64,000 bases of DNA from Pseudodesulfovibrio sp. zrk46 (GTDB lineage Bacteria; Desulfobacterota; Desulfovibrionia; Desulfovibrionales; Desulfovibrionaceae), in the NCBI RefSeq assembly GCF_012516435.1, contig NZ_CP051216.1:3285669-3349668 (forward strand). Reading direction: 5' to 3'. Below are positions 1,637-15,004 of the stretch, one piece after another. Numbering within the stretch: the first letter of the stretch is position 1; every line of letters begins with the position of its first letter. Position numbers and translations under genes: made by a program. Below the pieces are notes generated by a model. The model saw only the letters and a list, made by a program, of their open reading frames with translations, was not told the origin of the DNA and ran no database searches.

Positions 1637-2569
1637 ATGCAAATCTATATTTCTGGGTCTCTTGCCTTTGATCGCATCATGACCTTTCCCGACAAATTTT
1701 CCAACCATATCCTTCCGGATAAAATTCATATTTTGAATGTTTGCTTCTTAGTGGATGGCATGTCCGAACGCTTTGGCGGTACGGGTGGTAACATTGCTTA
1801 TAATTTGGCCTTGCTGGGCGAAAAGCCTATTTTGCTTAGTCAGGTCGGTAAAGATTTCGCATCGTATGATACTTGGCTGCAGAAACACGGTATCACCGTC
1901 GAAGGAATCCGTACCGTTGAACAGGAATTCACAGCTGGGGCCTACATCACTACTGATCAGTCGGATAACCAGATTACCGGTTTCAATCCTGGTGCGATGA
2001 AGTATCCCAGTCAGTATGATATGGAGAAGGTGGATAAGGCAGAGGGATTGGGTATCATCTCTCCCGGCAACCTGAACGATATGATGGACCACCCTAAGTA
2101 TTATCGCGAAAATAGCATTCCATTTATATTTGATCCGGGTCAGCAGATCCCTGCATTTTCTGGTGAGCAACTTGCCGAAGCATTTGAAGGTGCTGAAATT
2201 CTAATTACAAATGACTATGAACTGGAAATGGTCATGAAATCTACAGGGCTTTCTAAGGACGACATTGTAGATCGAGTTTCTTACCTGATTACTACTTTGG
2301 GGGAAGAAGGATCCATTGTGAACAGTAAAGGCGAAGAGACCATGGTTGCCCCCTGTCCGGTTTCCGAAGTTGCTGACCCCACCGGGGCTGGCGATGCCTA
2401 TCGTTCGGGTTTACTGAAGGGGCTTTCGATGGGCAAGACCGTTGCTGAAGCCGCCAAACTGGGGTCCGTGTGTGCAGCGTACGCAGTTGAGTGTAAGGGG
2501 ACGCAGGAGCACTCTTTCACCATTGAAGAGTTCACAAACCGTTACGAGGCGACTTTCGGCTCTATGTAG
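1637..2569 (+). CDS. PfkB-family kinase, adenosine-kinase-like
   Basis: A ribokinase-superfamily sugar/nucleoside kinase of 310 aa from the ATG at 1637. I chose this start because AGGAGG lies 4 bases upstream; an in-frame extension to 1574 lacks a ribosome site. The N-terminus (GSLAFDRIMTFPDKF, then FGGTGGNIAYNLALLG) closely resembles bacterial adenosine kinases such as mycobacterial AdoK. The PfkB C-terminal signature DPTGAGDA at residues 247-254 has the catalytic base Asp at 253. AMP formation from adenosine is the likely reaction; another nucleoside or sugar substrate is possible. It is the first of three successive kinase-type genes. Confidence 0.85.
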   Translation: MQIYISGSLAFDRIMTFPDKFSNHILPDKIHILNVCFLVDGMSERFGGTGGNIAYNLALLGEKPILLSQVGKDFASYDTWLQKHGITVEGIRTVEQEFTAGAYITTDQSDNQITGFNPGAMKYPSQYDMEKVDKAEGLGIISPGNLNDMMDHPKYYRENSIPFIFDPGQQIPAFSGEQLAEAFEGAEILITNDYELEMVMKSTGLSKDDIVDRVSYLITTLGEEGSIVNSKGEETMVAPCPVSEVADPTGAGDAYRSGLLKGLSMGKTVAEAAKLGSVCAAYAVECKGTQEHSFTIEEFTNRYEATFGSM

Positions 2570-2601
2570 TACGATTACCATACTCGCCAAGGAGGCGCGT
2601 C

Positions 2602-3684
2602 ATGATCGAATTGAGGATCGAATCCATAAAGGCATATCTTAAGCGTGCTTTCGGACATGACGCACAACTCTTGGGAGTGGGGGATATTGGCAATCTTGAT
2701 GAGCAGGGGATGAAGGGCTTCGGCTACGGAAAACCTCTGCTCATTAATTTTGAAGTAGGGGGCAAAGAGCGAGAAGCTGTCATCTCTATTATGAAAGGGG
2801 ATAAATACGGTCATCAGTTTTACTGGGATCGTGCAGCTGTTCTCATGTTTCAGTATGAGACTTCAGCCCGTATGGAATGCCATGTGCGCCCACTAGGACT
2901 GGGGTACGTGGACGGTGATGACCAATTAATTCCGGTTCAGACTGCCAAGGAATTTTTTATCGTTAATGAAAAGCTTGAAGGACACGACTATTTTCTCAAT
3001 TTAGAGCGTATCCGGAAGAAAGGTCTTCTGGACATTGATATAGACACTTCGCGCAACTTTGCCCGTTGGCTTGCAAATGTTCACAGCGCCAAGAATGATG
3101 ACCCTCATCTTTATTTTAGGCGTATTCGAAATTTGATTGGTTCCAGTGAGTGCATATTAGGGCTTATTGATGAGGCTTATCCTCATCCATTCTCTTTTTT
3201 TTCTGATCAGCGTTTTGTCGCGGTGGAAAAAAGGCTTATTGATTGGCGATGGAAGCTCAAGGAGTATTCTCACCGATTGAGTGCGGTTCATGGTGATTTT
3301 CATCCGTGGAACGTACTGGTGACCGAAGATGGCGATTTCTCAGTTTTGGACCGGAGTCGAGGCGAGTGGGGAGAGCCTGGTGGCGATCTGGCCAGTATGG
3401 CGGTCAATTACTTGCTGTGGAGTCTTTATCAACAAGATCGGCTGGCTGGTCCATTTGAGACTCTTTATAAAGTTTATTTCGAAGAATATCTCGAATGCAC
3501 TGGGGATACAGAGGTGCTTGAAGTCATTGGCCCGTTCTTTGTTTTCAGAGGACTCGTCATCGCTTCGCCAGAATGGTACCCCGATCATCCTGAGTCAGTG
3601 CGGAAGCGGCTATTCAATTTCATTGTCAATGTTCTTGAAGACGATGTTTTCGACTGGCAGAACATTAACCGTTACATGGAGTAA
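2602..3684 (+). CDS. aminoglycoside-phosphotransferase-fold kinase, substrate unknown
   Basis: A 360-aa protein of the APH/choline-kinase fold. The catalytic Brenner motif HGDFHPWN starts at residue 230 (catalytic Asp 232), and the metal-binding Asp follows in VLDRSRGEWGEPGGDLA at about 250. The kinase core therefore looks intact. AAGGAGG lies 6 bases before the ATG. It sits between an adenosine-kinase-like gene and an APS-kinase-like gene, 3 bases from the latter, which argues for a shared pathway rather than antibiotic resistance. The fold phosphorylates many small alcohols, so the substrate cannot be named from sequence. Confidence 0.82.
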   Translation: MIELRIESIKAYLKRAFGHDAQLLGVGDIGNLDEQGMKGFGYGKPLLINFEVGGKEREAVISIMKGDKYGHQFYWDRAAVLMFQYETSARMECHVRPLGLGYVDGDDQLIPVQTAKEFFIVNEKLEGHDYFLNLERIRKKGLLDIDIDTSRNFARWLANVHSAKNDDPHLYFRRIRNLIGSSECILGLIDEAYPHPFSFFSDQRFVAVEKRLIDWRWKLKEYSHRLSAVHGDFHPWNVLVTEDGDFSVLDRSRGEWGEPGGDLASMAVNYLLWSLYQQDRLAGPFETLYKVYFEEYLECTGDTEVLEVIGPFFVFRGLVIASPEWYPDHPESVRKRLFNFIVNVLEDDVFDWQNINRYME

Positions 3685-3687
3685 CCA

Positions 3688-4272
3688 ATGGTCTTTGGCA
3701 AGAATGCATGGGCCATTTGGGTCGTTGGCTTGCCGGGAAGTGGCAAGTCATCGCTCGTTCGTGGGATAGCTGACCATCTTAAAGCCAAAGGAATTACGGT
3801 GACAATCCTTGCTATGGATAGGCGGCGCAAAACGTACTTCCCTGAACCAACATATTCTGCTCGCGAGAGAGAGGAAGCCTATGCCCTGCTTGCTGATGAG
3901 GCAGCCTCATTGGTGAAGCAGGGCGAATGCGTTATCATTGACGGTTCAGCTTATAGAAAGGCTATGCGAGATAGGGCGAGATGTCAGATTTCAAGGTTTG
4001 CGGAAATCTATATTTATTGCGATTTGGAGGAGGCTGTACGTCGTGAATCGCTTCGGCCAAATGGGGAAGTTCTGGCTGGATTGTATCATAAGGCATTGGA
4101 ACGAAAAAAAACTGGTCAGGTGTGGCCTGGCCTAGGAGAAGTCATCGGGGTTGATGTTCCATTTGAGGAAAATTCTGATGCGGAACTGGTTATCGATAGC
4201 ACACGGCTTTCACAAGAAGAAACATTGGGAAAAGCCTTGCACTTTCTGGACAGCTGGCTATCCGATGCTTAG
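3688..4272 (+). CDS. adenylylsulfate-kinase-like P-loop protein
   Basis: A 194-aa P-loop kinase most like APS kinase (CysC). Walker A is GLPGSGKSS at residues 14-22, and the C-terminal half keeps a CysC-like layout (YIYCDLEEAVRRE, then GVDVPFEE in place of GIDSPYE). The APS-binding loop is altered: the usual LDGDNVR is LAMDRRRK here, and the FISPYR element reads IIDGSAYRKAMRD. Dissimilatory sulfate reducers use APS directly and do not generally need PAPS, so the substrate may differ from APS. The start is 3 bases after the preceding kinase, indicating one operon. Confidence 0.8.
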   Translation: MVFGKNAWAIWVVGLPGSGKSSLVRGIADHLKAKGITVTILAMDRRRKTYFPEPTYSAREREEAYALLADEAASLVKQGECVIIDGSAYRKAMRDRARCQISRFAEIYIYCDLEEAVRRESLRPNGEVLAGLYHKALERKKTGQVWPGLGEVIGVDVPFEENSDAELVIDSTRLSQEETLGKALHFLDSWLSDA

Positions 4273-6186: not shown

Positions 6187-6837
6187 ATGATCGATCTGCA
6201 CACCCATAGTGTTTTTAGTGATGGGGAGCTCATCCCTGCTGAACTCGTTCGCCGCGCAGAAGTTGCGGGTTACAAGGCTATTTGCATTACTGATCATGCA
6301 GATGAGTCTAATATGTATCATTCTTTGGACAATGTTCTCCGTTTCGTCAAGAAACATGGACATTTCTATGATATCAATGTGCTTGCAGGTGTAGAGTTGA
6401 CCCATATTCCCCCCGCTTTAATTAGCGAGATGGTCGGTAAAGCTCGAGAGGCCGGGGCACAAGTGGTTGTTATGCATGGCGAGACACCTGTTGAACCTGT
6501 CGCACCCGGAACCAATCTAGCAGCAATTGAGGCTGGTGTAGACGTATTGGCTCATCCCGGCATGATTACAGATGAAGAGGTGGCCCTTGCTGTAGAAAAA
6601 AAGGTGGCTCTTGAGATCACAACACGTGGCGGCCATAGTTATACCAACGGTCATGTTGTGGCCTTAGCCCGTAAACATGGGGCAAAACTAGTCGTAAACA
6701 ACGATGCTCATGCTCCTCGTGACCTAATAGGACAAGATTTGCGTAAAACAATTGCTCTTGGTGCTGGTTTAACACTTGAGGAATATCGTCAGACTGAAGC
6801 CAATGCCTGGGAAATCGTGCAGCGGTGTATGAAATAG
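6187..6837 (+). CDS. PHP-domain metal-dependent phosphoesterase
   Basis: A 216-aa PHP protein opening with the metal-binding motif IDLHTHSVFSDG, followed by ITDHAD at about residue 37 and a further His cluster (LAHPGM, GGHSYTNGH, VNNDAHAP). This arrangement fits the histidinol-phosphatase-like PHP family. The start is 6 bases after the DUF151 gene, so miaB, DUF151 and PHP look like one transcript. The substrate is not defined by sequence; histidinol phosphate is one option, nucleotide or nucleic-acid ends are others. Confidence 0.85.
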   Translation: MIDLHTHSVFSDGELIPAELVRRAEVAGYKAICITDHADESNMYHSLDNVLRFVKKHGHFYDINVLAGVELTHIPPALISEMVGKAREAGAQVVVMHGETPVEPVAPGTNLAAIEAGVDVLAHPGMITDEEVALAVEKKVALEITTRGGHSYTNGHVVALARKHGAKLVVNNDAHAPRDLIGQDLRKTIALGAGLTLEEYRQTEANAWEIVQRCMK

Positions 6838-6864
6838 GGCAATTGTCGAAGAATCAATTAGTAA

Positions 6865-6892
6865 AAAGCCGTAGCCAGAATGGTGCGGCTTT
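6865..6892 (+). terminator. possible hairpin terminator ahead of the tol operon
   Basis: AAAGCCG at 6865-6871 pairs with CGGCTTT at 6886-6892, with an additional short CCA/TGG pairing inside. The T-run after it is poor (CTTCACAA), so it may be a weak terminator or only a leader hairpin between the PHP gene and tolQ. Confidence 0.45.
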
Positions 6893-6940
6893 CTTCACAA
6901 ATAGAGGGCATTTTCAGCCCAAACAATAACGGGTGATCAA

Positions 6941-7648
6941 ATGAATTTTTTGCCTGACAGCAATATCCTTACACTTCTGATGGGAGCCACTCTAGCCGTA
7001 AAAATGGTCATGATTTTTTTGGCTTTAATGTCTATTTGGAGTTGGACCATTATCTTTTTTAAGTTTTTTACGATTGGCACTGCGCGAAAAAAGGTCATTA
7101 GAGGGTATGATGTCTTTATGGATGCCGAAGACCTTACATCGGGCCTCAAGGCACTTGGTTCCAAGGATCAATCACCTTTGGCTCGAGTCTCAACCCTAGC
7201 GGTGCATGAATTTCGTCTATTGGAAAAGGCTGATGTTAATCGTGAACGAAAGCGGTTACTGGTTAAAGATACACTTCGTCGTGTATTGAAACAGGGAATT
7301 TCAAAAGAAATGCGTGGGTTAACTCGTAACTTGCCATTTCTTGCCACTTGCGCCAATGCGGCCCCGTTTATCGGCCTCTTTGGCACTGTGTGGGGTATTA
7401 TGCACTCATTCCATTCAATCGGATTGGCGCAGTCTGCTGCACTTGCGACTGTTGCCCCTGGAATATCTGAAGCCCTTATTGCCACTGCTATTGGTCTCTT
7501 AGTCGCTATCCCGGCCACCATTTTTTACAACTATTTCCTTGGTAAGCTCAATGAGGTCGAGTCCGGTATGGTTGATTTTGCCGGAGCGTTTTTAAATCGC
7601 GCTGAGCGTGAGATTGCTTGGGCTTCCAAAGGCGAAAAAAAAGCGTAG
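6941..7648 (+). CDS. tolQ: Tol-Pal system proton channel subunit TolQ
   Basis: A 235-aa MotA/TolQ/ExbB-family inner-membrane protein. A first membrane segment lies near residues 15-40, and a long cytoplasmic part is followed by the diagnostic block (FLATCANAAPFIGLFGTVWG, then VAPGISEALIATAIGLLVAIP) forming two further segments. With TolR it conducts protons to energise TolA. It begins the gene order tolQ-tolR-tolA-tolB-pal, which fixes its identity against ExbB. Confidence 0.95.
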   Translation: MNFLPDSNILTLLMGATLAVKMVMIFLALMSIWSWTIIFFKFFTIGTARKKVIRGYDVFMDAEDLTSGLKALGSKDQSPLARVSTLAVHEFRLLEKADVNRERKRLLVKDTLRRVLKQGISKEMRGLTRNLPFLATCANAAPFIGLFGTVWGIMHSFHSIGLAQSAALATVAPGISEALIATAIGLLVAIPATIFYNYFLGKLNEVESGMVDFAGAFLNRAEREIAWASKGEKKA

Positions 7649-7657
7649 GGGGCCGCT

Positions 7658-8074
7658 ATGGCTATTAAGACTGGTGGCGGCTTTCTCAATGAGATCAATG
7701 TGACGCCTTTTGTAGATGTCATGCTTGTACTTTTAATCATTTTTATGGTTACGGCTCCGCTTATGACACAGGGGGTAGAAGTTGATTTACCCACGACTCG
7801 AACAGTTAAGAATTTACCACAAGATTCTGAGCATTTAGTTTTATCAATTAAGAAGAGCGGAGAGCTCTTTCTTGACGAATATGAAGTCGGCTTAGGAGAA
7901 CTTGAAGATCACTTGAAGCGCCTTGTTTCAAAACAAAAGAAGCAGCTTTTCATGCGTGCCGATAAAGAAGTTCCTTATGGCACTGTGGTTCAAGTAATGG
8001 GAGAGATTAAGGCGTCTGGTATTGATCGTCTTGGTATTGTCGCAGAGCAGACTAAAAATGAAAATACAAAGTAA
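7658..8074 (+). CDS. tolR: Tol-Pal system protein TolR
   Basis: A 138-aa ExbD/TolR protein. One membrane helix follows the start, with the conserved proton-carrying Asp in INVTPFVDVMLVLLIIFMV at about residue 21. The periplasmic domain includes LPTT and ends in a short amphipathic part. The start is 9 bases after tolQ with a GGGGGCC-type ribosome site. It is the stator partner of TolQ. Confidence 0.95.
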   Translation: MAIKTGGGFLNEINVTPFVDVMLVLLIIFMVTAPLMTQGVEVDLPTTRTVKNLPQDSEHLVLSIKKSGELFLDEYEVGLGELEDHLKRLVSKQKKQLFMRADKEVPYGTVVQVMGEIKASGIDRLGIVAEQTKNENTK

Positions 8075-12358: not shown

Positions 12359-13081
12359 ATGCAGGAAATACAGAAAAACAATGGCTCTGATTTTACCTCC
12401 TTTGAGCAGGTTGGCGATCACATTACCGTTCGTGGGATGAATGATTGGGTGGTACCATGGGCTGATTTGATGATGGTCATGTTCGTCTTGTTTGTAGTGT
12501 TATTCGTCTATGCCAGTACGCATCAGGATGTAAAAGTTCTGTTTAGTGATCAAAGTCGTGGCAATGCACAGTCAACAAGTACTCTTGACCCATTAATAGG
12601 GTTGATTGGGCAGATATCAAGTCGAGTTGATTCAACAGGAGCCTCTAGTAACGTACGAATAGCTGGGAAGAAAGTATTATACCGTAATCGTGCCGAAGGG
12701 ATATCTGTCATGAGAGAAGGGCCAAATCGTGTTCGTATTTCATTGCGGGGGGAAATGTTCTTTGCTGCAGGCGATGATGTGTTGAGATCTGATGCATTAA
12801 CATATTTGCGAGAAATTGCTGAAGTTATTCGTTTGAGTGTGGGGATGGTCCACGTAATCGGATACGCTTCTGCTGATGAGGCTGAAGGCAGCAGGAGTTT
12901 TGGACTATCTTCTCGTCGTGCGGATGATGTGGCTGATCTTTTGATGAGTGAATTTAAGATTGATCCTCGAAGAATTGTTGTCTCAGGGCGAGGGGCGTAT
13001 GCGCCAGAATTACCGGGGATATCTGAAGCTAACCAAGAAATGAATAGACGTGTTGAAATAATCATCACAAATGAGAACTAA
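12359..13081 (+). CDS. MotB-like (OmpA-domain) stator protein
   Basis: A 240-aa protein with a cytoplasmic N-terminus and a single membrane helix carrying the MotB-type proton-binding Asp, VPWADLMMVMFVLFVVLFVY, at about residues 33-52. A periplasmic linker follows, then a C-terminal OmpA/MotB peptidoglycan-binding domain with VIGYASADEAEG, LSSRRADDVADLL and MNRRVEIII. AGGAGA precedes the ATG. It is transcribed from a sigma-54 promoter and is followed by a MotA-like gene, the reverse of the usual motA-motB order. It may power flagellar rotation or another proton-driven envelope process. Confidence 0.87.
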   Translation: MQEIQKNNGSDFTSFEQVGDHITVRGMNDWVVPWADLMMVMFVLFVVLFVYASTHQDVKVLFSDQSRGNAQSTSTLDPLIGLIGQISSRVDSTGASSNVRIAGKKVLYRNRAEGISVMREGPNRVRISLRGEMFFAAGDDVLRSDALTYLREIAEVIRLSVGMVHVIGYASADEAEGSRSFGLSSRRADDVADLLMSEFKIDPRRIVVSGRGAYAPELPGISEANQEMNRRVEIIITNEN

Positions 13082-13098
13082 GTCGATTGGAGGCTCTC

Positions 13099-13965
13099 AT
13101 GAATAAAAAGAACTTAATTGGCGTTATCATCAGTCTATTTATTTTTGTCAGTAGTTTCTTGCTGACTGGTGCTGCCGCTGCATATTGGAATGTGGCAGCT
13201 TTCCTAGTTGTTGCTTCTGGACTGACTGCAGCAATGCTCATCAGCTATCCTGTACAACATGTTAAAAATGCATTTATGGTCGCAAAAAATGCTTACACTA
13301 GCGGGCATGTTACCTCAGAAGAGATTGTCACCACGCTACTTGACTTATCAGTCAAGAGTAAGGTTGATGGGATACTATCCCTTGAACGTACAAAGAACGG
13401 CGATACATCTATTTTCCTTAAAAATGGACTTATTCTTCTGGTTGATAACTATAAAGAAGATGAAATTCGTGAAACATTGAATACGGAGATGGCATTCTTT
13501 AACCTGCGACGACAGCAAAGTGAAAGATTCTTTCAAACCATGGCAAAGATGGCTCCTGCATTTGGTGTCGCAGGAAGTGTAATTGGCCTTATTGGTCTTC
13601 TTATGGGGATCAATGACACTGCAGTGATTTTAAAAAATATTCCAGTTGCTTTTATTTCGACACTATACGGATTGGTTTTGAGCAATCTTATCTTTTCGCC
13701 AATTGCAGAAAATATTAATTATTCTACGAGAGCTGAACTCTTGAATCAAAAGCTGGTGATGGAAGGTGTTGTGGCGATAAGTAAGGAGCAAAATTCATAC
13801 AAGCTGGAAAGAAAACTTACCTCTTTCTTAAGTCCGAGTGAGCGAAAGGGTAAGACTGAAACACTACGACGTATTACGCGTAAATATGTACAGAAGCGGC
13901 AAGGTCCTGCTGAACAGGTCGTGGACCCTGCCGATCATTTAAATGATTCTGAACAAGCTGCATAA
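13099..13965 (+). CDS. MotA/TolQ/ExbB-like channel protein
   Basis: A 288-aa membrane protein starting at the ATG at 13099 behind TTGGAGG; a TTG in frame at 13087 overlaps that ribosome site and is unlikely. Two hydrophobic segments lie at about residues 5-55, and two more are in APAFGVAGSVIGLIGLLMG and VAFISTLYGLVLSNLIFSPI, the MotA channel block. A basic C-terminal cytoplasmic tail follows. It lies 17 bases after the MotB-like gene and forms a stator pair with it. It is closer to MotA than to TolQ because of the four-helix layout. Confidence 0.85.
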   Translation: MNKKNLIGVIISLFIFVSSFLLTGAAAAYWNVAAFLVVASGLTAAMLISYPVQHVKNAFMVAKNAYTSGHVTSEEIVTTLLDLSVKSKVDGILSLERTKNGDTSIFLKNGLILLVDNYKEDEIRETLNTEMAFFNLRRQQSERFFQTMAKMAPAFGVAGSVIGLIGLLMGINDTAVILKNIPVAFISTLYGLVLSNLIFSPIAENINYSTRAELLNQKLVMEGVVAISKEQNSYKLERKLTSFLSPSERKGKTETLRRITRKYVQKRQGPAEQVVDPADHLNDSEQAA

Positions 13966-13988
13966 CTAGATTAATCGATTCAATTGTA

Positions 13989-14017
13989 AAAGGAGCTTTC
14001 GGGCTCCTTTTCTTTTT
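13989..14017 (+). terminator. Rho-independent terminator after the Mot-like pair
   Basis: AAAGGAGC at 13989-13996 pairs with GCTCCTTT at 14003-14010 across a six-base loop, followed by TCTTTTT. It isolates the sigma-54 unit from glk. Confidence 0.88.
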
Positions 14018-14059
14018 GCGGGGTTATGATATTCTTCCGCCGACGGAGGTTTGTATTAA

Positions 14060-15004
14060 ATGGCGAAAATATTGGCAGCGGACATAGGCGGAACTAATAG
14101 TCGCTTCGCCTTGTTTGACGACGCAAATGGTGAGCTTGTGATGGAAGATTCCATTTGGCTCAAAACCCATGGGGCAGAATCCTTTGCACAGCTGTTAACA
14201 CAGCTTTGGGAGAGTGATTTTCAAGCTAAGCCTGGTGGGTTCGATAGTGCAGCTCTTGCGGTAGCTGGTGCTGTCCGTGATGGTGTAGAGTGCCCCTATC
14301 TTCCCAATGCTCCTTGGGGAGTAGATCTTCGTAAAGTTGATTTTAGGGTGAGAAAAGCATGCCTTATCAACGATTTCGCGGCACAAGCATATGCCTGTCG
14401 CACTCGTGCTGTAAAGGATGCAATGATTCTTCAAGGTGGTGAAGAGGAAGATGGCGTGATTGGCGTCATTGGGGCTGGAACTGGGCTTGGCTATTCAGCA
14501 CTAATTAAGGGTGAGAATGAATGGGTGGCGTTGCCTTCTGAAGGCGGTCATATGGCTTTCCCATTTACTGGCAAAAAAGAGGCGGAATATTCAGAGTTTA
14601 ATAGACGGGCTAGTGGACGCAATTGGGCCGAGGGGGACAGTGTTGTCACGGGACTTGGTTTGCAGCTTGTTCACAAATTTTTGACAGGAGAAGACAAGTC
14701 TCCTGCTGATATCTCTGAAGCAATCACACCGGAAAGCGAAACCACTAAGTGGTATGCTCGATTTTATGCACGAGCCTGTCGTAATTGGTCTATTGCGCTG
14801 ATGTGTAAAGGTGGTTTGTATATTGCCGGTGGGATAGCTGCAAAAAATCCTATGTTTGTGAATGTCCCCGAATTTCTTGAGGAGTTTCATAATTCTCATG
14901 TGTATGAAGAATTCTTATATTCCGTACCTATTAAACTGAACACCAACGAAGAAAGCGGGTTGCTTGGTGCAGGACTCTACGCCATGCAATTGCTTGGTAG
15001 ATAG
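14060..15004 (+). CDS. glk: glucokinase
   Basis: A 314-aa hexokinase-fold glucokinase of the E. coli Glk type. The phosphate-binding motif is DIGGTNSRFALFDD at the N-terminus, the catalytic Asp lies in LINDFAAQAYA at about residue 103, and GVIGAGTGLGYS is the second ATP loop. PSEGGHMAFP is the family's conserved segment. It phosphorylates glucose at the head of glycolysis. It lies 8 bases before the TVP38 gene and probably shares a transcript with it. Confidence 0.93.
   Translation: MAKILAADIGGTNSRFALFDDANGELVMEDSIWLKTHGAESFAQLLTQLWESDFQAKPGGFDSAALAVAGAVRDGVECPYLPNAPWGVDLRKVDFRVRKACLINDFAAQAYACRTRAVKDAMILQGGEEEDGVIGVIGAGTGLGYSALIKGENEWVALPSEGGHMAFPFTGKKEAEYSEFNRRASGRNWAEGDSVVTGLGLQLVHKFLTGEDKSPADISEAITPESETTKWYARFYARACRNWSIALMCKGGLYIAGGIAAKNPMFVNVPEFLEEFHNSHVYEEFLYSVPIKLNTNEESGLLGAGLYAMQLLGR

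Follow-up and report, generated by a model that had tools for sequence, protein, structure and literature searches.

A conserved pair of APH-fold and APS-kinase-like genes, loosely accompanied by a PfkB-family kinase, in Desulfovibrionales, other bacteria and archaea

Several described kinases come close to the proteins studied here. 5-Methylthioribose kinase (MtnK) acts on a SAM-derived sugar, and Cj1415 is a CysC-like cytidine diphosphoramidate kinase. In COG2187-COG0645, an APH kinase and a P-loop kinase are fused, and Rv2004c, an APH-plus-P-loop kinase, lies beside Usp in the mycobacterial dormancy regulon. The locus analysed here belongs to a stretch of 64,000 nucleotides from Pseudodesulfovibrio sp. 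zrk46 (the window, meaning the whole of that stretch), and it contains an APH-fold kinase gene (APH), an APS-kinase-like gene (APSK) and a PfkB-family gene (PfkB), with the following features.

1637..2569, + strand: PfkB, nucleoside-kinase-like, 310 aa, loosely associated partner of APH and APSK
2375..2398, + strand: catalytic motif DPTGAGDA of PfkB (residues 247-254), nearly all invariant in 11 sequences
2602..3684, + strand: APH, a kinase of the APH fold with 360 aa, the first gene of the core pair
3289..3312, + strand: catalytic loop HGDFHPWN of APH (residues 230-237), with H230, G231, D232, H234, P235 and N237 invariant in 42 diverse sequences
3349..3351, + strand: D250 of APH, invariant in the same 42 diverse sequences
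3688..4272, + strand: APSK, a P-loop kinase of 194 aa resembling APS kinases, the second gene of the core pair
3727..3750, + strand: P-loop GLPGSGKS of APSK (residues 14-21), read from the sequence
3808..3831, + strand: LAMDRRRK of APSK (residues 41-48), an altered LDGD-x-x-R acceptor motif with D44 and R47 kept
3940..3942, + strand: D85 of APSK, a residue that marks the pair subfamily (found in 58 of 61 pair members and in none of the 13 others)

All three kinase genes were intact, core motifs included, and lay on one strand with gaps of 32 bases (PfkB-APH) and 3 bases (APH-APSK); open reading frames, Pfam matches and motifs thus agreed with the initial annotation, which had described three intact kinases with this spacing. 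The start of PfkB was placed at the ATG at 1637, with AGGAGG just 5' of it, the mechanical reading frame beginning at the TTG at 1574. The window proteins matched Pfam PfkB, APH and APS_kinase with E-values of 2.6e-43, 5.4e-9 and 6.9e-16, respectively. The APH match scored 36.6 bits against a cut-off of 23.2, with the catalytic HGD...N and D present (by analogy, D250 is presumably the metal-binding position), and the APS_kinase match scored 59.1 bits against 21.1. None of the three window kinases reached an NCBIfam cut-off. The trio was flanked by cutA on one side and miaB on the other, in a stretch that recurs across the Desulfovibrionales and whose other genes we take, by look, to be nth, a bifunctional nuclease, PHP and tolQRAB. 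The order cutA-(PfkB)-APH-APSK-miaB was found again in relatives, and in the alignments made within the order the identity to the window proteins was 62-79% for APH, 52-63% for APSK and 57-84% for PfkB. The recurrence of this gene order and the conservation of its members speak against a chance arrangement. No riboswitch was found in the window and 12 loci, a promoter and terminator scan did no better than on shuffled sequence, and defence-system models gave marginal matches at most.

APH and APSK were kept together or lost jointly, and they form the core pair of the locus. Among 348 genomes of the Desulfovibrionales, APH was found in 142 and APSK in 143, with APSK present in all the APH genomes (142/142); the one genome of the order with APSK and without APH, G502, was 66% complete. 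Across the order, each of the two genes was found in 32 of the 59 genera and, counting the better genomes alone, in 118 of 246. Some APH copies were partial, and that of G512 (43% complete) contained stops. In a set of 41 relatives, APH and a close APSK occurred in the same 33 genomes and both were missing in 8, including G014 (81% complete); this pair count refers to the close APSK, the table for these genomes also listing other, distant APS-kinase-like genes. At the level of the phylum, 28 of 395 genomes contained APH, and APSK was present in 28/28 of these; two extra APSK matches came from G143, where APH was cut by a contig end, and from G078, a marginal match lying in a different gene setting. 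Similarly, APSK was found somewhere in 29 of 30 genomes taken from 80 named loci (the best 80 of at least 217 relatives), 20 of the 30 having been picked because APSK was unrecognised within the locus. The sole genome of that set without APSK (G443) was a 1.3 Mb record.

Mere linkage is insufficient to explain this pattern, since both genes were kept unlinked in G029 (∼0.86 Mb apart), G371 (∼1.0 Mb apart on one contig) and G503 (on separate large contigs). In G408 they were adjacent, at the end of a contig, and a single contig of G741 carried two APH-APSK pairs in opposite orientation (C34:7175-8817 and 12664-14309). In G012 and G021 both genes were gone, and PfkB was followed directly by miaB.

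PfkB was present in 29 of the 41 relatives, 4 of which had no pair, and was missing from 8 of the 33 pair-bearing ones. The resulting split (all three genes in 25 genomes, the pair alone in 8, PfkB alone in 4 and none in 4) ruled out a single three-gene pathway. PfkB comes and goes independently, as a loose companion to the two core genes; the three-gene order noted at the outset was conserved in the Desulfovibrionales, and as a pair in other phyla, with PfkB as its inconstant element. The best PDB relatives of PfkB were 3b1r/3b1n ('Ribokinase, putative', 1e-63) and the adenosine kinase 4o1g (1.4e-55), and its best NCBIfam score was 118 bits against a cut-off of 450. From these matches, it is probably a PfkB-family nucleoside kinase, with adenosine as the likeliest substrate. 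In G026 and G035, where the pair was absent, PfkB lay 130 and 77 bases 3' of metK, respectively (metK was scored in G026). Its placement in the window is possibly a chance grouping.

Relatives of APH, with 49-74% identity once the query's own record was set aside, were found in named genomes of many phyla, including among others Nitrospira, Acidobacteria, NC10, betaproteobacteria and Bipolaricaulota for the bacteria, and Methanothrix, Methanoperedens, ANME-1, Bathyarchaeota and Freyarchaeota for the archaea. The named loci were the best 80 of at least 217 relatives, drawn from at least 596 pattern matches, a set that leans towards the query L059; by title, 40 were archaeal (38) or Bipolaricaulota (2), and 40 belonged to other bacteria. 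An APSK of the same sequence cluster was present in 58 of these best 80 of at least 217. Identities of ∼50% were seen for the pair when some bacteria were compared with methane-cycling archaea, and in the trees of both APH and APSK the Desulfovibrionales grouped with f55 bacteria, near methane-cycling archaea; the deeper fork of the APH tree had a support of 93/95 and was not starred. Counts of neighbours refer to sequence clusters, of which as a rule one member was scored, and are lower bounds because open reading frames were wrongly called in some GC-rich stretches, the ahcY of L152 being visible through profile-match coordinates alone. In two ANME-1-type loci (L164:868-4111 and L165:3151-6531), APSK came after two CdhD-family genes (scored in L164), overlapping the second of them in L164. 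In the ANME-1-like loci L146, L151 and L154, APH was divergent from thiolase-like and HMG-CoA-synthase-like genes (by look); L154 is titled Nitrosotalea and, having the same neighbours as L146/L151, may be mis-binned.

As judged from sequence comparison, the APSKs of the pair form a subfamily of their own within the APS-kinase-like proteins, with altered acceptor-site residues. We compared 61 pair-member APSKs, picked for diversity, with 13 further APS-kinase-like proteins from the genomes retrieved; most of the 61 adjoin APH, and profile matches in APH genomes supplied nine from L155-L169 as well as those of L164/L165. The pair members formed one clade (99/96), which was recovered in 98% of 200 bootstrap trees; among the 13 others, two were long branches. 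APSK retains the P-loop, D44, R47 and R61. G at residue 43, however, was found in none of the 61 pair members versus 12 of the 13 others, Y56 was present in 61/61 with F in its place in 12/13 others, and Y65 was present in 61/61 versus 0/13. Overall, the 61 pair APSKs depart from the 13 others both in the LDGD motif and in the F/N/S residues. The positions changed are presumably those that bind APS in true APS kinases. The alteration at LAMDRRRK, already singled out in the initial annotation, was confirmed in this comparison of 61 with 13 proteins, together with the separate clade and the changed acceptor-site residues. With TIGR00455 (cut-off, 138.7 bits), the window APSK (68.1) and the L068 member (111.5) both scored below, and the L062 pair member passed (142.7), which counts against a clean split. 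The model of the window APSK (pLDDT 92.9) had APS kinases as best matches (TM 0.78/0.87 to 7yq1). Weak matches of APSK to KTI12 and L-seryl-tRNA kinase were obtained as well. A sat-like gene, identified by sequence reading, lay near three of the 13 other APS-kinase-like genes (L170-L172). In the archaeal L170 (5974-10097), sat-like, DHH-like, AP-superfamily-like and APS-kinase-like genes stood together (by look), an arrangement similar to those of L171 and L172 and possibly a PAPS/PAP unit.

The window APH was modelled with a pLDDT of 88, and most of the top Foldseek matches were 5-methylthioribose kinase (TM 0.52-0.64), closely followed by other APH kinases; the match to 5-methylthioribose kinase was weak (11-14% identity, rmsd of 5.6-8.3 Å). 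The sequence profile of APH found no significant relative among solved structures, and the APH member of L053 gave no Pfam match at E 0.01.

Neighbours of the pair in distant genomes point to SAM/adenosine metabolism. Among the 40 archaeal/Bipolaricaulota loci of the best 80 of at least 217 relatives, ahcY was found in 22 and adjoined APH in 19, the one member that was scored reaching 656.7 bits as S-adenosylhomocysteine hydrolase (cut-off, 497.6); an ahcY of that cluster was found in 0 of the 40 other-bacterial loci of the same best 80 of at least 217. An amidohydrolase like 5'-deoxyadenosine/MTA/SAH deaminases occurred in 6 of those best 80, the one member scored lying below every curated cut-off. 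The gene order in L115 was amidohydrolase-ahcY-APH, and PfkB adjoined APH in L113 and L124 and was divergent from it in L054. In L115, a Bipolaricaulota locus, APH and APSK were separated (6569-7658) by what look like a four-helix-bundle gene and a small gene pair of toxin-antitoxin type. Among the 30 APH genomes, ahcY was found in 29 (25 above the cut-off) and a window-type PfkB (at least 245 bits) in 3, with weak PfkB matches in 7 more. PNP_UDP_1 enzymes were present in 30/30, so that adenosine has another exit, which counts against the SAM/adenosine reading. Within the Desulfovibrionales, ahcY lay away from the pair and was above the cut-off in 39 of 41 genomes, pair or no pair, and G031 and G039 had the pair and no clear ahcY; a simple dependence of the pair on ahcY within the order was thereby ruled out. 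The published 5-deoxyribose pathway includes kinase, isomerase and aldolase steps (PMC6079011). We did not retain this pathway, since neither its isomerase nor its aldolase was recognised beside the pair among those neighbours that were named, few of them scored. The placing of the pair in the SAM/adenosine area is supported but contested, because the other bacterial loci resemble stress islands. For its part, the salvage of adenine nucleotides or adenosine envisaged in the initial annotation gained from the neighbours in distant genomes (ahcY, amidohydrolase, PfkB and metK) and survives as regards this setting, with a core of two genes in place of a three-gene pathway.

We tentatively prefer, at something short of an even chance, a reading in which APH and APSK work as one unit of two enzymes, carrying out two linked phosphorylations on a by-product of SAM use that is a ribosyl compound or a nucleoside. 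The substrate could be adenosine, 5'-deoxyadenosine, methylthioadenosine or the sugar remaining after base removal. APH, with a predicted fold nearest to that of methylthioribose kinase, would phosphorylate the sugar, perhaps as the first step, and APSK, with its acceptor pocket rebuilt, would put a second phosphate on the APH product, two phosphates perhaps ending up on one molecule. PfkB would be an optional neighbour from the same metabolic area. In a more general form, which we consider rather unlikely, this would be an undescribed two-step pathway common to Bacteria and Archaea: a nucleoside or ribose stemming from SAM would be phosphorylated by an MtnK-fold kinase and next by a re-purposed APS kinase, as a nonorthologous route clearing adenosine-type by-products in organisms with S-adenosylhomocysteine hydrolase and without a PfkB-type adenosine kinase.

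Also on the unlikely side is a stress/detoxification pair, in which the small molecule phosphorylated by APH and APSK would be toxic or linked to dormancy, and the proximity of ahcY an accident of archaeal gene order. Such a role would suit the loci of Nitrospira, Acidobacteria and other bacteria, in which stress-type clusters occur. Among the best 80 of at least 217 relatives, the Usp cluster was found in 11 loci (scored in L063), and the S30AE/cold-shock, LonB-like and NAPRTase clusters in 17, 16 and 10, respectively (one representative each scored), with an isochorismatase-family cluster in 6. Usp-like genes were also seen, by look, near pair genes in G029 (L179) and L190, and Rv2004c may offer a parallel. 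However, none of these clusters, the isochorismatase one included, was found in the 40 archaeal/Bipolaricaulota loci of the same best 80 of at least 217, and a conservation of ∼50% between bacteria and archaea would be unusual for a detoxification kinase.

The remaining explanations each account for part of the data. An ordinary APS kinase, in a locus handling APS, PAPS or PAP, would agree with the fold and Pfam family of APSK and with the L062 score. The same can be said of the inositol-monophosphatase-family gene found directly 3' of APSK in six Methanoperedens-type loci (L125, L127, L137, L140, L142 and L144; L125 scored) and in f54 (L069, scored; L190 and L191, by look), two unrelated lineages; that family includes PAP phosphatase. 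Nevertheless, the separate clade, the Y56, Y65 and D85 residues, the low TIGR00455 score of the window APSK and the presence of the sat-like gene near different APS-kinase-like genes all speak against this reading, which leaves APH unexplained and which we regard as decidedly improbable; the APS/PAP recycling suggested earlier found little positive evidence beyond that phosphatase-family neighbour. A similarly low probability is given to RNA-related kinases, PSTK/KTI12-like and tied to tRNA modification. The weak KTI12 and L-seryl-tRNA kinase matches would fit them, as would neighbours such as miaB, a TIGR01177-type methyltransferase, polyA polymerase and a ThiI-like gene, but these neighbours differ by lineage, APSK is nearer to APS kinases than to PSTK, and miaB belongs to the conserved stretch and remains where the pair is lost. 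Sugar activation, with APH supplying a sugar phosphate to a nucleotidyltransferase, is improbable: such genes adjoin APH or APSK in L107 (by look), L136 and L063/L150 (L063 and L136 scored), yet in few lineages only, and APSK would go unexplained, so that little beyond these scattered neighbours speaks for the nucleotide-sugar pathway once considered for the locus. A chance grouping of functionally unrelated genes within a conserved housekeeping neighbourhood could draw on the conservation of the flanks (cutA, miaB and the tol genes) across the order, but it is extremely improbable given the 142/142 co-occurrence, the joint loss, and the pairing of both genes when unlinked, in other phyla and in archaea.

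The kinase folds are known, and the APH-APSK pair is undescribed as far as the open-licence papers searched show; nor did a passage search in the main text of a D. vulgaris mutant study (PMC10102598) find anything on these genes. Almost never apart in the genomes searched, and with no role in those papers, the two genes make a clear target in the search for a new metabolic step. Sulfur-assimilation calls would be misled by the gene name 'adenylyl-sulfate kinase' in such genomes, should the APSK subfamily turn out not to be an APS kinase.

Set against the known systems, APSK resembles APS kinase (CysC, adenylyl-sulfate kinase) in its fold, P-loop, D44, R47 and R61, and differs from it in having no G ahead of D44, Y56 instead of F, the new Y65 and D85, and a clade of its own; moreover, the partner of APS kinase is ATP sulfurylase, whereas that of APSK is the APH kinase. 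Cj1415 may be a parallel to APSK, as a CysC-like protein with another substrate. In the case of APH, the modelled fold suggests a likeness to MtnK, its best match, but methionine-salvage partner genes were not recognised. PfkB resembles the PfkB-family nucleoside/adenosine kinases (3b1n, 4o1g) in its full-length sequence match and catalytic DPTGAGDA, and departs from them in scoring below every NCBIfam cut-off. Finally, the pair may be likened to the fused COG2187-COG0645 in the succession of an APH and a P-loop kinase and in its stress neighbours in bacteria, and differs from it in that the P-loop partner is APS-kinase-like.
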